Below the pieces are notes generated by a model. The model worked only from the letters and a program-made list of their open reading frames with translations, was not told the DNA's origin and did no database searches. A DNA stretch of 64,000 bases from an uncultured Bacteroidales bacterium (GTDB lineage: Bacteria; Bacteroidota; Bacteroidia; Bacteroidales; WCHB1-69), in the NCBI GenBank assembly GCA_905235135.1, contig CAJOKR010000020.1, positions 62,001 to 126,000 of the forward strand, given 5' to 3'. The stretch's first letter is position 1. Every line of letters starts with the position of its first letter. Below, one piece after another: positions 11,247 through 54,640 of the stretch. The translations under genes and the position numbers were made by a program.

Positions 11247-11323
11247 CCCCACACTGCGCTTCGCTTGTGTGGGGTTATTTGCGCTTCGCGCGTGTTGCCT
11301 CTTCGAGGCTGCTCAAGGAAATT
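11247..11323 (-). repeat. Composite multi-hairpin element (family B, copy 1), overlapping the 5' extension of the phosphotransferase-RapZC ORF
   Basis: CCCCACAC..GTGTGGGG + GCGCTTCGCGC + GCCTCTTCGAGGC + tgctcaaggaa. Confidence 0.85.
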
Positions 11324-11373
11324 TTTCATATATATGGTTCTTCGACCGTTATCTAATTATCTGATACTTAAAT

Positions 11374-11433
11374 CCTAAACCCTAAACCTTAAACCTTAAA
11401 CCTTAAACCTTAAACCTTAAACCTTAAACCTTA
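11374..11433 (-). repeat. Heptamer tandem array (coding orientation GGTTTAA) abutting the rodA stop codon
   Basis: aaaccttaaaccttaaacctt... directly downstream of rodA on its own strand. Confidence 0.9.
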
Positions 11434-12687
11434 ATTATCATTCAATTTGATGAAACAGAACAGCATGATGGTGAAGGACCAGAGGGAGGAACCGCCGTAG
11501 CTGATGAAGGGTAAGGGGATGCCGATGATGGGCAGGAGGCCGGTGGTCATGCCGATGTTGATGAAAAAGTGGAAGGCGAGGATGCCTGCTATGCCGTACC
11601 CGTAGTAGCGTACGAACGGATTTCGCTGTTTCTCAGAGAGTTTCAGGATGCGGAAGATGAGGGCACCGAAAAGTCCGAAGACTACCAAAGTGCCGAAGAA
11701 ACCCCATTCCTCGCCGATGGCACAGAAGATGAAGTCGGTGCTTTGCTCGGGTACGAAGTTGAGCTTCGTCTGCGTGCCTTTCAGGTAGCCCTTGCCGAAC
11801 AAGCCGCCCGAGCCGATGGCGATTTTCGACTGGTTGAGGTTGAAGTCGGCACCCAACGGGTCGGAAGTTTTGCCCATGATGGTGTCAATACGCTGTTTTT
11901 GGTGCGGTTCGAGGCCGTGCTCATATAGGAAGTTGACGGAGAAAACGAACGCGACACAGGCCAAATAAACGATGACGTTGCGGCGGTATTTCTTCTTCTG
12001 GGTGCGGTTGGCAATCATGAAGGCGATGAAAACCGCCGTGATGATGGCGATGGAGTAGGTTTCGTTGAATTTCAGCGTGATGAAGGCGATAATGCCCGCA
12101 ATGATACCGAGTACTAAAAATTCCGCACTCAACCCCTCGCGGTAGAAGAGGATGATGAAGGAGAAGAAGACCAGTGCGGAACCCGCGTCGTGCTGCAATA
12201 GCGCCACAATGATGGGGATGAAGACCAACCCGAATTGCGCAAGCCACACGTAGCGGCGTTGGTTGGCGGTCTTGCCCTCCTGCATGAACTTGGCCAAAGC
12301 CAAGGCCGTGGCCACCTTCATAAACTCCGTGGGCTGTATGCTGAAACTACCGATTTTGATCCACGACTTTGCACCGTTGATTTCGGCCCCGATAAAGATT
12401 ACGAGTACCATCAAAAATAGGCAGAAGAGGTAGAAAAAGTAGGGATAATGCTGTATTATTCCACTGTCTATCAGTAATATAACAATAGCTAAAAGGATAG
12501 AGGTCCCAATCCAGATCATCTGTTTGCTGTAGGGTTGCCCGAAGTCGAAAATCGGGGTGGAACCGTCGGGGATGTAGCAGGTGGAATAGATGGTGATCCA
12601 GCCGATGATGACCAGCGCGAGGTAGTAGCAGATCAGCCGGGCGTCAAAACCCTTGGACATCTTATTGTATGGTTCTAATTTCGGCAT
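11431..12687 (-). CDS. rodA: Rod shape-determining protein RodA (SEDS)
   Basis: Multi-TM; 'FVPEQSTDFIFCAIGEEWGFFG', 'GLLPIIGIPLPFISYGGSSL'. Confidence 0.95.
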   Translation of the reverse strand: MPKLEPYNKMSKGFDARLICYYLALVIIGWITIYSTCYIPDGSTPIFDFGQPYSKQMIWIGTSILLAIVILLIDSGIIQHYPYFFYLFCLFLMVLVIFIGAEINGAKSWIKIGSFSIQPTEFMKVATALALAKFMQEGKTANQRRYVWLAQFGLVFIPIIVALLQHDAGSALVFFSFIILFYREGLSAEFLVLGIIAGIIAFITLKFNETYSIAIITAVFIAFMIANRTQKKKYRRNVIVYLACVAFVFSVNFLYEHGLEPHQKQRIDTIMGKTSDPLGADFNLNQSKIAIGSGGLFGKGYLKGTQTKLNFVPEQSTDFIFCAIGEEWGFFGTLVVFGLFGALIFRILKLSEKQRNPFVRYYGYGIAGILAFHFFINIGMTTGLLPIIGIPLPFISYGGSSLWSFTIMLFCFIKLNDN

Positions 12688-15586: not shown

Positions 15587-16105
15587 TTAAACGGTTAGGA
15601 TTTCGTCGATGGGGCGGTCGTGGGGTTCGGAAGGAGGGACCAGCTGGAAGTCGAAACAGAGACCGAGGGTGGGCGTTTGCGGGTGCTGAGCTAAGAAACG
15701 GTCGTAATAGCCGCGACCACGTCCCAAACGGTGTCCTTCGCTGTCGAAAGCCATACCAGGCACCACAATGAGGTCGAAAGCGCCGGTATAGGGATTGTTT
15801 TGCGGTTCGGGGATGTGGAAGTCTCCCTCCGCAAAGGGCGTATTATCAGCCAGTTCCACCGGGATGATGTCATCACCGACCACGGTGGGCAGGATGATGG
15901 TCTTCCGATGGCGCCATTCCTCAATGAACGACAGTGTTTGCACTTCGTCAGGTAGGGAGGCATAGAGCATCACCCTTTCGGCAGCGAGAAAGCGCGGATG
16001 GGAAGCCAGCTTTTGCAGCACCGCCTCCGACTGCTTTTGCAGCTCTTCCGGGGTATGCTGTTTCTTGGCGATGCGGATTTGTTGGCGGAGGTCTTTTTTG
16101 TTCAT
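15587..16105 (-). CDS. 5-formyltetrahydrofolate cyclo-ligase
   Basis: 'MNKKDLRQQIRIAKK' start; 'DLIVVPGMAFDSEGHRLGRGRGYYDRFLA' signature. The ORF-track start at 16204 lies in repeats. Confidence 0.93.
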   Translation of the reverse strand: MNKKDLRQQIRIAKKQHTPEELQKQSEAVLQKLASHPRFLAAERVMLYASLPDEVQTLSFIEEWRHRKTIILPTVVGDDIIPVELADNTPFAEGDFHIPEPQNNPYTGAFDLIVVPGMAFDSEGHRLGRGRGYYDRFLAQHPQTPTLGLCFDFQLVPPSEPHDRPIDEILTV

Positions 16106-16120
16106 GTCTTTTTTGCTTGT

Positions 16121-16336
16121 CCCCACACTGCGCTTCGCTTGTGTGGGGTTATTAGCACTTCGTGCGCCCCACACTGCGCTTCGCTTGTGTGGGGTTATTA
16201 GCACTTCGTGCGCCCCACACTGCGGCTTACGCCTTGTGTGGGGTTATTAGCACTTCGTGCGCCCCACACTGCGCTTCGCTTGTGTGGGGTTATTAGCACT
16301 TCGTGCGTTTTGCCCCTCCGGGGCTGCTTAAGGAAG
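16121..16336 (-). repeat. Composite hairpin element (family B, copy 2) with a four-unit tandem array of about 46-48 bp
   Basis: Four consecutive CCCCACAC...GTGTGGGGTTATTAGCACTTCGTGCG units, then GCCCCTCCGGGGC and tgcttaaggaagt. Confidence 0.93.
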
Positions 16337-16341
16337 TATTT

Positions 16342-16732
16342 TTAAGTATTCTTTTTTTCTTGTTTCAGGAGGAAGATTTCGAAGATGGCGTAGAGGAAAT
16401 AGATGACCAAGGAAGGCGATGGCGAAGCGGAGGGCGTCTTCGCGGTTGAAGAACATGTACAGGAGCAGGAACATCAGGCAGGAAAGGAGTTTTACGGTGC
16501 GGGAGAGCATGTAGGAGGTGACGAATTTTTTGCCGTCCTGACCGTCGTCGCTGCGGAGGACGATGTACATGGTGAAGAGGGTCATCACAAAGAAGAAGAG
16601 CACGATGAAGGGCAGCGCGGGGGTGGCGAGCTGAGGCCAGATCCATTGGAACAGCAGTGCCAGCGCGGCGATGATGACCGAAAACACGATGATTCGGAAC
16701 GAGAACTTCTTAATCGGTACCTTTTTGCTCAT
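16342..16732 (-). CDS. Small membrane protein (AtpI-like position upstream of the expected ATP synthase genes), C-terminus frameshifted near 16405-16415
   Basis: TM-rich; shifting by one base near the end restores 'FAIAFLVIYFLYAIFEIFLLKQEKKNT*' in place of 'FLGHLFPLRHLRNLPPETRKKEYLKILP'. Confidence 0.75.
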
Positions 16733-20902: not shown

Positions 20903-20962
20903 TTACTTGATGTTCGGTTCCTCCAATCCGAGATGCTGCTTCTTATCGACGGCCTTCAGGAT
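20903..20962 (-). pseudogene. C-terminal remnant of an MFS transporter paralogue, truncated at a REP boundary
   Basis: Minus strand encodes ...ILKAVDKKQHLGLEEPNIK*, resembling the end of the nearby MFS protein (LKIEDKKKGYGLELPNVVKDNK*). Confidence 0.6.
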
Positions 20963-20963
20963 T

Positions 20964-21029
20964 AGGAGCTTCGGCATTCCTGCCGAAAATCGTTATTATC
21001 GTTTTGCGGCAGGAATGCCGCACCTCCTA
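20964..21029. repeat. REP-like nested palindrome (family A, copy 2), overlaps the RAYT 3' end
   Basis: aggagcttCGGCAttccTGCCGaaaatcgttattatcgttttgCGGCAggaaTGCCGcacctcct. Confidence 0.92.
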
Positions 21030-21613
21030 AGGTGTATTCATCAGGATCCAAATACTGTGGGTTATTCTGGATATAGACAATATAATGCAGAAAGTTATTG
21101 AGGTTTCTCACTATACGGTCGAAAATGCCAGGTTGCCAGATTGTGCCTTTTTGCCCGAGAACTTTGTTGATAGAATGTGCGGAATAGCCTTTCACTCTGG
21201 AAAACACGGACGTAACATTATGACCGTCTATGGGTGTGAGTAATACGTGAACATGGTTGGGCATAATAACATAGCAATGGATGATATAGCGTTTTCCGTC
21301 GTAGAAAAGAAGGGCATCCTCAACAATTTTCCTTATATCGGGTCTTTTAAGAATGCAGCTACCGTATCCCGCATCTATCCATCTGTCGCACTTCACGAGA
21401 ATATTATGATTATATTCTTCTTGCACTTCTTGGCTCCAAGGGAAAGGATGTGCTTTCATCCATTCCTGTTTATAAACTTTCAGTTCCTCTATTTTCGACT
21501 GTGGGATTGAATCCGCCAAGCGAAATGTGACAAATTGCGTTTTGCCGTCTTGATGCCAATGCGGAAGATTTGTACCCCAAATGTGGACATACTGGTTTTT
21601 TTCGAGAAATTGA

Positions 21614-21680
21614 TAGGAGTTTCGGCATTCTTGTCGAAAATCGTTAATGTTGTTCTGCGGCAGGAATGCCGCACCTCCTG
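21614..21680. repeat. REP-like nested palindrome (family A, copy 3), overlaps the RAYT 5' end
   Basis: aggagtttcggcattcttgtcgaaaatcgttaatgttgttctgcggcaggaatgccgcacctcct. Confidence 0.92.
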
Positions 21681-21849
21681 TTTCGTGCGGCAGGGAATCC
21701 GCGTCACTTAGTTTTGTCTTCATTTTTATATTTTTTATTAAACGTTATCTAACGTTGAAATGGGTAGGTTTATTGTGTTTCTAAAATAATATTTGTTTTT
21801 AAAATTTGAGATTAAACAAGAACAGGTAAAAACCAAGACAGTCGCTATA

Positions 21850-23486: not shown

Positions 23487-23526
23487 AATAATACTATTTT
23501 AGTTAGAAATTATTTATCCAATATTG

Positions 23527-23583
23527 TTTGCGGCAAGAATGCCGAGGTTTTTATTTTATGCGGCAAGAATGCCGCAGCTCCTA
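23527..23583. repeat. REP-like repeat (family A, copy 5; tandem right-half hairpins)
   Basis: gCGGCAagaaTGCCGaggtttttattttatgCGGCAagaaTGCCGcagctcct. Confidence 0.85.
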
Positions 23584-23808
23584 TTTTTCGTTCCGGTTTT
23601 TGCTGGATTTTACGAGGTCGATGAGAATATATCCGGTCAACAAACCCCAAATGGCCATCAGGATTGGGCTTCTTCTCAGGATGTTGGTGGAATACTGGCC
23701 GGCTTTGTACCAATAGAGCAGCGAAAGCAGCACGCCGACCGCCATCGCGGCAACATGCAGCCAGGTAAGGTTCTTTTTCCAGAAATCGCTACTCTTTTTC
23801 ATTGGCAA
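23581..23808 (-). CDS. Hypothetical two-TM small membrane protein
   Basis: 75-aa ORF with two hydrophobic segments; overlaps its neighbour by a few codons. Confidence 0.65.
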   Translation of the reverse strand: MPMKKSSDFWKKNLTWLHVAAMAVGVLLSLLYWYKAGQYSTNILRRSPILMAIWGLLTGYILIDLVKSSKNRNEK

Positions 23809-43678: not shown

Positions 43679-43768
43679 CCCCACATTACGCTCCTTCGTC
43701 GCTTATATGGGGTTAATTGCACTTCGTGCGTCTTGCCTCTTCGAGGCTGCTTAAGGAAGTTGTTTCAT
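43679..43768 (-). repeat. Composite multi-hairpin element (family B, copy 3) upstream of ispD
   Basis: ccccacattacgctccttcgtcgcttatatggggttaattGCACttcGTGCgtcttGCCTCttcGAGGCtgcttaaggaagttgtttcat. Confidence 0.88.
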
Positions 43769-53838: not shown

Positions 53839-54327
53839 ATGAAAAAGCAACTTTTCCTTTTGACAGCCCTGTTTATGGGCATTACCATGCTTGGCACGGC
53901 ACAGAGTGCGATTGTGCCCGTGGGTGGAGACGCACAGTCTTCAGCCGGTTCGGTGAGTTACACCGTGGGGCAGATTGCGGTGCAAACGGTGGCCAACAGT
54001 AACGGCATTTATGTGGCCGAGGGCGTGCAACAGCCATACGAGATTCAAGCTGTGGGCGTGGACAACTATCCCCAAATCGTGCTTGACGCCGTGGTCTATC
54101 CCAACCCGACGGAAAACATTGCGCAGCTGAAACTTAACGGTTTCGAGCTTCCGGCCGATGGTCTCCGTGCCACTATTTTCGACGGCAACGGCAAGATGCT
54201 GCAGTCGTTTTCTGTCACTGACGACCTGACTTCCTTCCAAATCGGCCAGTACGCCACCGGAACCTACTATCTTGAGGTGAAAGATGGGAAGCGGGTGTTG
54301 AAGACGTTCAAAATCGTGAGGAAGTAG
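53839..54327 (+). CDS. Small secreted protein with T9SS type A sorting domain
   Basis: Signal peptide, C-terminal 'VVYPNPTENIAQLKLNG...ATIFDGNGKMLQSF...TGTYYLEVKDGKRVLKTFKIVRK'. Confidence 0.9.
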   Translation: MKKQLFLLTALFMGITMLGTAQSAIVPVGGDAQSSAGSVSYTVGQIAVQTVANSNGIYVAEGVQQPYEIQAVGVDNYPQIVLDAVVYPNPTENIAQLKLNGFELPADGLRATIFDGNGKMLQSFSVTDDLTSFQIGQYATGTYYLEVKDGKRVLKTFKIVRK

Positions 54328-54640
54328 TTTAGAGTTTAGAGTTTAAGGTTTAGAGTTTAGAGTTTAAGGTTTAGAGTTTAAGGTTTAGAGTTTAAGGTTT
54401 AGAGTTTAAGGTTTAGAGTTTAAGGTTTAGAGTTTAAGGTTTAGAGTTTAGAGTTTAAGGTTTAGAGTTTAAGGTTTAGAGTTTAAGGTTTAAGGATAAC
54501 GACATATCAATCCCCCTTAACCCTTAAACCCTCAACCTTAACCCTTAAACCCTCAACCTTAAACCCTCAACCTTAACCCTTAACCCTTAAACCTTAAACC
54601 TTAAACCTTAACCCCTCAACCTTAACCCTTAAACCAAAAA
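54325..54640. repeat. Long heptamer array with inverted halves (G-rich AGTTTAAGGTTTAG left, C-rich CCCTTAAACCTTAA right)
   Basis: Left half 54328-54497 in GTTTAAG/GTTTAGA orientation, right half about 54515-54636 in the complementary orientation. Confidence 0.93.

Follow-up and report, generated by a model that had tools for sequence, protein, structure and literature searches.

An array of small hairpins lies just upstream of the gene for 5-formyltetrahydrofolate cyclo-ligase (5-FCL) in the rumen-type genome of an uncultured Bacteroidales bacterium. The array is an amplified copy of a dispersed element, not a regulator of 5-FCL. The element itself is, with a probability of about 0.8, a REP-like, non-autonomous mobile DNA element of three hairpins, mobilised as single-stranded DNA by a Y1 protein of the Y---Q--HH type. 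All coordinates refer to the window, the whole stretch of 64,000 nt that was analysed.

Array at the 5-FCL locus

The relevant features of the window are as follows.

15587..16105 (-): 5-FCL, the gene downstream of the array (PF01812)
16121..16165 (-): array unit 1, with hairpin 1 at 16121-16148, a linker, and hairpin 2 at 16155-16165
16167..16211 (-): array unit 2
16213..16260 (-): array unit 3, with a compensated variant of the inner apical hairpin, GGC-TTAC-GCC
16262..16306 (-): array unit 4, which with hairpin 3 and the tail forms a complete canonical element at 16262-16341 (107 bits)
16312..16324 (-): hairpin 3, GCCCC-TCC-GGGGC, with a GGA loop on the minus strand
16325..16335 (-): conserved tail, TGCTTAAGGAA as presented and TTCCTTAAGCA on the minus strand, where an A/T-rich stretch precedes TTCCTTAAGCA
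16328..16732 (-): upstream co-directional gene; in the frame of its homologues the stop codon is at 16342-16344, 6 nt from the element
11247..11326 (-): a complete element on its own, after FtsW/RodA (11431-12687), not mentioned in the earlier note
43679..43764 (-): another complete element on its own (88 bits), likewise not mentioned there

The array is composed of four hairpin 1-hairpin 2 units (46, 46, 49 and 46 nt), followed by hairpin 3 and the tail, and a gap of 15 nt separates it from the 5-FCL ATG (16105-16103, minus strand). These coordinates bear out the layout given in an earlier note on this DNA: four adjacent units with one GCCCC-TCC-GGGGC hairpin and TGCTTAAGGAA, a third unit whose inner hairpin is replaced yet pairable, an end about 15 nt before the ATG, and GAA/GGA triloops on the minus strand. 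In shuffled sequence the chance expectation is 0.00 for the outer hairpin and 0.16 for the linker with the second hairpin, and the RNA fold z-score is -9.35. A CRISPR array, a riboswitch or another catalogued RNA would likewise be repetitive and structured, but the units are without spacers and the window gives 0 matches to Rfam families, riboswitch and other leaders included, at gathering thresholds. Such an identity can be practically dismissed; the earlier note had likewise seen no resemblance to CRISPR or to a riboswitch class.

Two side observations concern the neighbouring genes. The upstream gene carries an apparent 1-nt frameshift near 16407-16415 relative to its homologues, either an assembly error or a recent mutation. 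The mechanical 5-FCL ORF can be extended 33 codons upstream through the array (16106-16204, minus strand), from a GTG (MLITPHKRSAVWGARSANNPTQAKRSVG...). It exemplifies how hairpin arrays may yield false N-terminal extensions in annotation.

Architecture and covariation of the element

The element is about 75 nt long and consists of three hairpins. Its consensus on the coding strand is TTCCTTRAGCA - GCCTC(GNA)GAGGC - AAAAC - GCRC(GNA)GYGC - AATTAA - CCCCACAC-AA-GC(GAA)GC-GCA-GTGTGGGG. Hairpin 1 contains a conserved AA/GCA internal loop, and hairpins 2 and 3, read on the coding strand, are closed by a GNA loop in nearly every copy. GNA triloops form a stable family in DNA (PMC5815330), and their stability in single strands is exceptional.

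A covariance model was built from 23 copies. Of the stem cells, 99.1% are paired, changes on both sides of a pair number 32 against 11.6 in shuffles, and no helix is without a pair changed on both sides. The earlier claim of a composite hairpin element is supported by real covariation across copies. Among about 190 copies, 3427 stem cells are Watson-Crick, 37 are G-T and 31 are A-C. Wobble pairs are thus rare and show no bias toward either strand, with the proviso that few masters gave rise to the young copies. This points to a constraint at the DNA rather than the RNA level, unlike selection on one transcribed RNA. Three adjacent GNA hairpins kept on one strand represent a clean natural case of a structural constraint on single-stranded DNA.

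Some copies depart from this plan. At L112, L108, L159, L164 and L146 of the same genome, a different hairpin repeat, TACCACCCCGCCCTTCGGGCACCCCTCCAGAGGAGGGGAATGG, takes the place of hairpin 3 or lengthens it, with the outer GCC/GGC kept, and longer matches occur in relatives (L323 and L374). A subset (for example L130:1550, L100:2457 and L125:2569) has a further module in common, GTTGTNACGAAA...CATATATTNAAA, which extends the element upstream of TTCCTT and may be a promoter or belong to a longer version of the element. A promoter on the tail side was also considered, given the A/T-rich stretch there and the GTTGTNACGAAA...CATATATT found before TTCC in some copies; no Bacteroidetes promoter consensus could be assigned to it.

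Copy number, host range and orthologous gaps

In its own genome the element has 137 covariance-model matches, and the exact outer stem occurs at 59 places. The majority of the copies are single complete elements, with tandem expansion also at contig C14. No copy of 60 bits or more lies inside any called gene of this genome. The element was found in nearly all genomes of the same genus that were searched (per-genome counts near 77 in this survey stand for at least 77) and, by model search, in 0 of 24 genomes of other families of the order. Among viral contigs its pattern was seen in three stretches only (L375, L376 and L377); these IMG/VR contigs carry the junction of hairpins 1 and 2 and may be prophage or host fragments.

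The named relatives at the 5-FCL locus are MAGs of Bacteroidales, the majority from ruminant guts. The element is absent from the 5-FCL gap in every relative that was read. In the closest of them (91% protein identity) the same gene pair is present and the gap holds 7-mer repeats instead. Downstream of FtsW, 7 genomes (6 of them relatives) have the element in the gap and 10 do not. As a separate observation, 7-bp tandem repeats (for example GTTTAAG and AAGTCTT) are present in many intergenic gaps of the window (5794, 7220, 8604, 11367, 15523, 43839 and 54326-54635), and in relatives tracts of such repeats fill gaps that are occupied here by the hairpin element.

Placement and orientation

Placement was counted on gene calls from a simple codon-usage gene finder. 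Sense orientation between co-directional genes accounts for 88 of about 104 copies in the own genome and for 66 of 75 in relatives. Pooled, there are 146 sense, 7 antisense, 8 divergent and 1 convergent copies, while the control gaps are 240 co-directional, 41 convergent and 31 divergent. Sense against antisense gives P ~6e-35 for the pooled copies, in which sites shared by orthology between species are not independent observations; the own-genome set alone stands at 87 sense to 3. Divergent gaps (P ~8e-8) and convergent gaps (P ~4e-4) are both depleted in the length-weighted comparison of pooled copies. Divergent copies make up 5% of those that are sense or divergent, against 34% expected were only the antisense orientation forbidden. 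The downstream start lies a median 44 nt from the element, the upstream stop a median 32.5 nt. The earlier note had named random placement relative to start codons, or a lack of covariation, as grounds for giving up its reading. Neither is seen in the genomic copies, because the covariation is real and the placement 5' of start codons is highly non-random.

The orientation lock, the depletion of the other gaps, the short distances and the covariation of the stems are also what an intercistronic RNA element would show, that is, an mRNA stabiliser, a processing site or a setter of downstream expression, kept by selection on RNA. We consider this unlikely: the transcribed strand has no excess of G-U pairs, the loops match stable DNA triloops, copies stand before many genes while orthologous gaps are empty or variable, and copies flank Y1 genes (see below). 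Hairpins after stop codons could likewise be intrinsic terminators or attenuators between genes. This is hardly credible, since the hairpins have no T-run in the sense direction and a terminator scan gave 0 hits against 2.3 in shuffles; the promoter scan run together with it gave nothing convincing either.

It is also conceivable that the element is mobile and that its orientation merely reflects the direction of replication, because lagging-strand insertion would correlate with gene orientation; IS200/IS605 elements do target the lagging-strand template (PMC6006769). However, gene strand and element agree at 95% and 88% for the genes directly adjacent and at no more than 60-65% five genes away. 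The lock is therefore tied to the adjacent genes rather than to the replichore, and the replication explanation appears very improbable.

The probable Y1 transposase partner

A clade of Y1 transposases (PF01797) is flanked by diverged copies of the element. Its members have the motifs MSYT...GGMPDHVHLF and Y---Q--HH, and the flanking copies are often inverted pairs. The member in the genome under study, on contig C111, reads YIARQKEHH, with variants in relatives, and the solved structures nearest to the Y1 protein by sequence are IS200-type transposases. Close homologues (72-100% identity) were found in eight genomes, all Bacteroidales, one copy per genome, and 8/8 have element matches beside the gene. 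This closest subclade comprises the proteins of G000 (C111), G019, G020, G026, G003, G028, G015 and G027. Matches on both sides of the gene are present at L398, L399, L400, L401, L403 and L404. The flanking copies at L384, L385, L390 and L394 follow the same three-hairpin plan, several of them with the AATTAA linker, and sister Y1 subclades have two-hairpin versions. On the tree the element-flanked Y1 genes are clustered (2 changes, compared with 11.5 in shuffles), and in the other Y1 clade 0/25 members are flanked. Furthermore, element copy number is higher in genomes with a close, C111-like Y1 (P = 0.005). The presence of just any Y1 gene does not account for copy number, since almost every member of the genus has one; the correlation is confined to the C111-like clade.

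Two observations count against mobilisation by this Y1. First, at its own Y1 locus C111 has a diverged CACCACAC version of the element, unlike the CCCCACAC of the dispersed copies; C111 is a short contig, and the draft MAG to which it belongs has an estimated contamination of 4.8%. Second, no close Y1 homologue was found in the draft assemblies of several high-copy genomes (G002, G013).

Other Y1 proteins were noticed as well. The window encodes one of class-2 (RAYT) type (20962-21723, minus strand; motif YIQNNP, PF01797). Both ends of its coding sequence contain a repeat encoding GGAAFLPQN.NNDFRQECR, and a 30-bp tandem that looks similar is located at 23522-23587. The surroundings of this gene yielded no three-hairpin element. 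At L060 (G000:C94) a Y1 transposase domain is in one frame with a C-terminal region that, by eye, resembles a Fic/Doc-type protein.

Proposed mechanism

Most likely, a low-copy HuH/Y1 protein of the Y---Q--HH type copies and moves the element as single-stranded DNA. The single-stranded form would be the Y1 substrate, and the transposition would be performed by the element-flanked Y1 protein. The array at 5-FCL is a tandem amplification of the hairpin 1-hairpin 2 unit. The earlier note had read the array as a regulatory 5' UTR device of 5-FCL. The composite hairpin element and its placement 5' of start codons stand, and the regulatory role is not supported: the same element is dispersed before many genes, is missing at the orthologous 5-FCL gaps that were read, directly follows an upstream co-directional stop codon, shows no strand bias in its wobble pairs and flanks a Y1 transposase clade.

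The orientation lock may have one of three causes: the element could insert into the transcribed coding strand, antisense copies could be selected against, or the element could be of use in the mRNA. Under mobilisation by Y1, the bias may arise at insertion, if the exposed coding strand is the target, or later, if antisense insertions are lost. The near-absolute orientation raises the question of whether REP-like spread is coupled to transcription or antisense copies are removed. A speculative and rather unlikely version is that transcription lays bare the coding (non-template) strand, as in R-loops between operon genes, and that Y1 inserts the single-stranded element there. If true, transposition would be oriented by transcription rather than replication, and the element would be the first described cognate element of a subclass 1.2 TnpAY1.

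Comparison with known systems

The closest parallel is with the REP/BIME sequences and TnpAREP (RAYT) REPtrons of E. coli, Pseudomonas and Stenotrophomonas. Both systems have high-copy intergenic palindromes with tandem amplification, a low-copy Y1 gene flanked by inverted-pair copies, and a bulge of the AA-GC type in the main hairpin (PMC8266576, PMC6006769); in E. coli REPs the conserved AA-GC bulge is required for activity (PMC8266576). As in REPs, a short palindrome is present in many extragenic copies (137 matches), and as in REPtrons a Y1 gene is flanked by copies (at the six loci with matches on both sides, L398-L401, L403 and L404, and at related Y1 loci). By analogy, the element would be of the REP/REPtron kind, in which a hairpin unit that is not autonomous depends on a HuH protein of low copy number. 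In canonical REPs the cognate Y1 protein also cleaves the single-stranded hairpin. There are several differences. Three hairpins are combined in one element here, and its dispersed copies, most of them single, are locked in sense orientation between co-directional genes; known REPs sit between unidirectional and convergent genes (PMC3733652). The flanked Y1 has the class 1 motif Y---Q--HH, whereas class 2 TnpAREP has an NP motif. Finally, the GT[AG]G foot 5' of the palindrome is missing: among 163 dispersed copies the foot is TTAA in 97, ATAA in 50 and GTAA in 12, although some Y1-flanking copies have GTAG or GTAA. The lack of the canonical GTAG in dispersed copies counts against the REP-like mobile reading, and for this reason the element is named REP-like and not REP. 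In the open-access papers searched for REPs in Bacteroidetes, no description of this element was found.

An IS200/IS605 insertion sequence has its transposase gene inside the multi-copy mobile unit; here the dispersed element is gene-free and the close Y1 occurs once per genome. TnpAREP subclass 2.6, described in Bacteroidetes with 'atypical secondary structures' (PMC6006769), shares the phylum and a Y1 flanked by unusual hairpins found elsewhere in the genome, but its motif is YIH[QN]NP (PMC6006769), while the flanked proteins here have Y---Q--HH. This motif is assigned to TnpAY1 subclass 1.2, for which no REP association has been reported and which is generally without the typical terminal IS200 secondary structures (PMC6006769). 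The subclass is also marked by a specific C-terminal domain and a shorter core. The flanked Y1 agrees with subclass 1.2 in its signature, its low copy number and its host, the subclass being known from Bacteroidetes and Cyanobacteria (PMC6006769). It differs from the description in that the hairpin elements beside the genes of one clade are present in many copies across the genome. One clade of a subclass described without a partner element now has an apparent cognate element of precise architecture.
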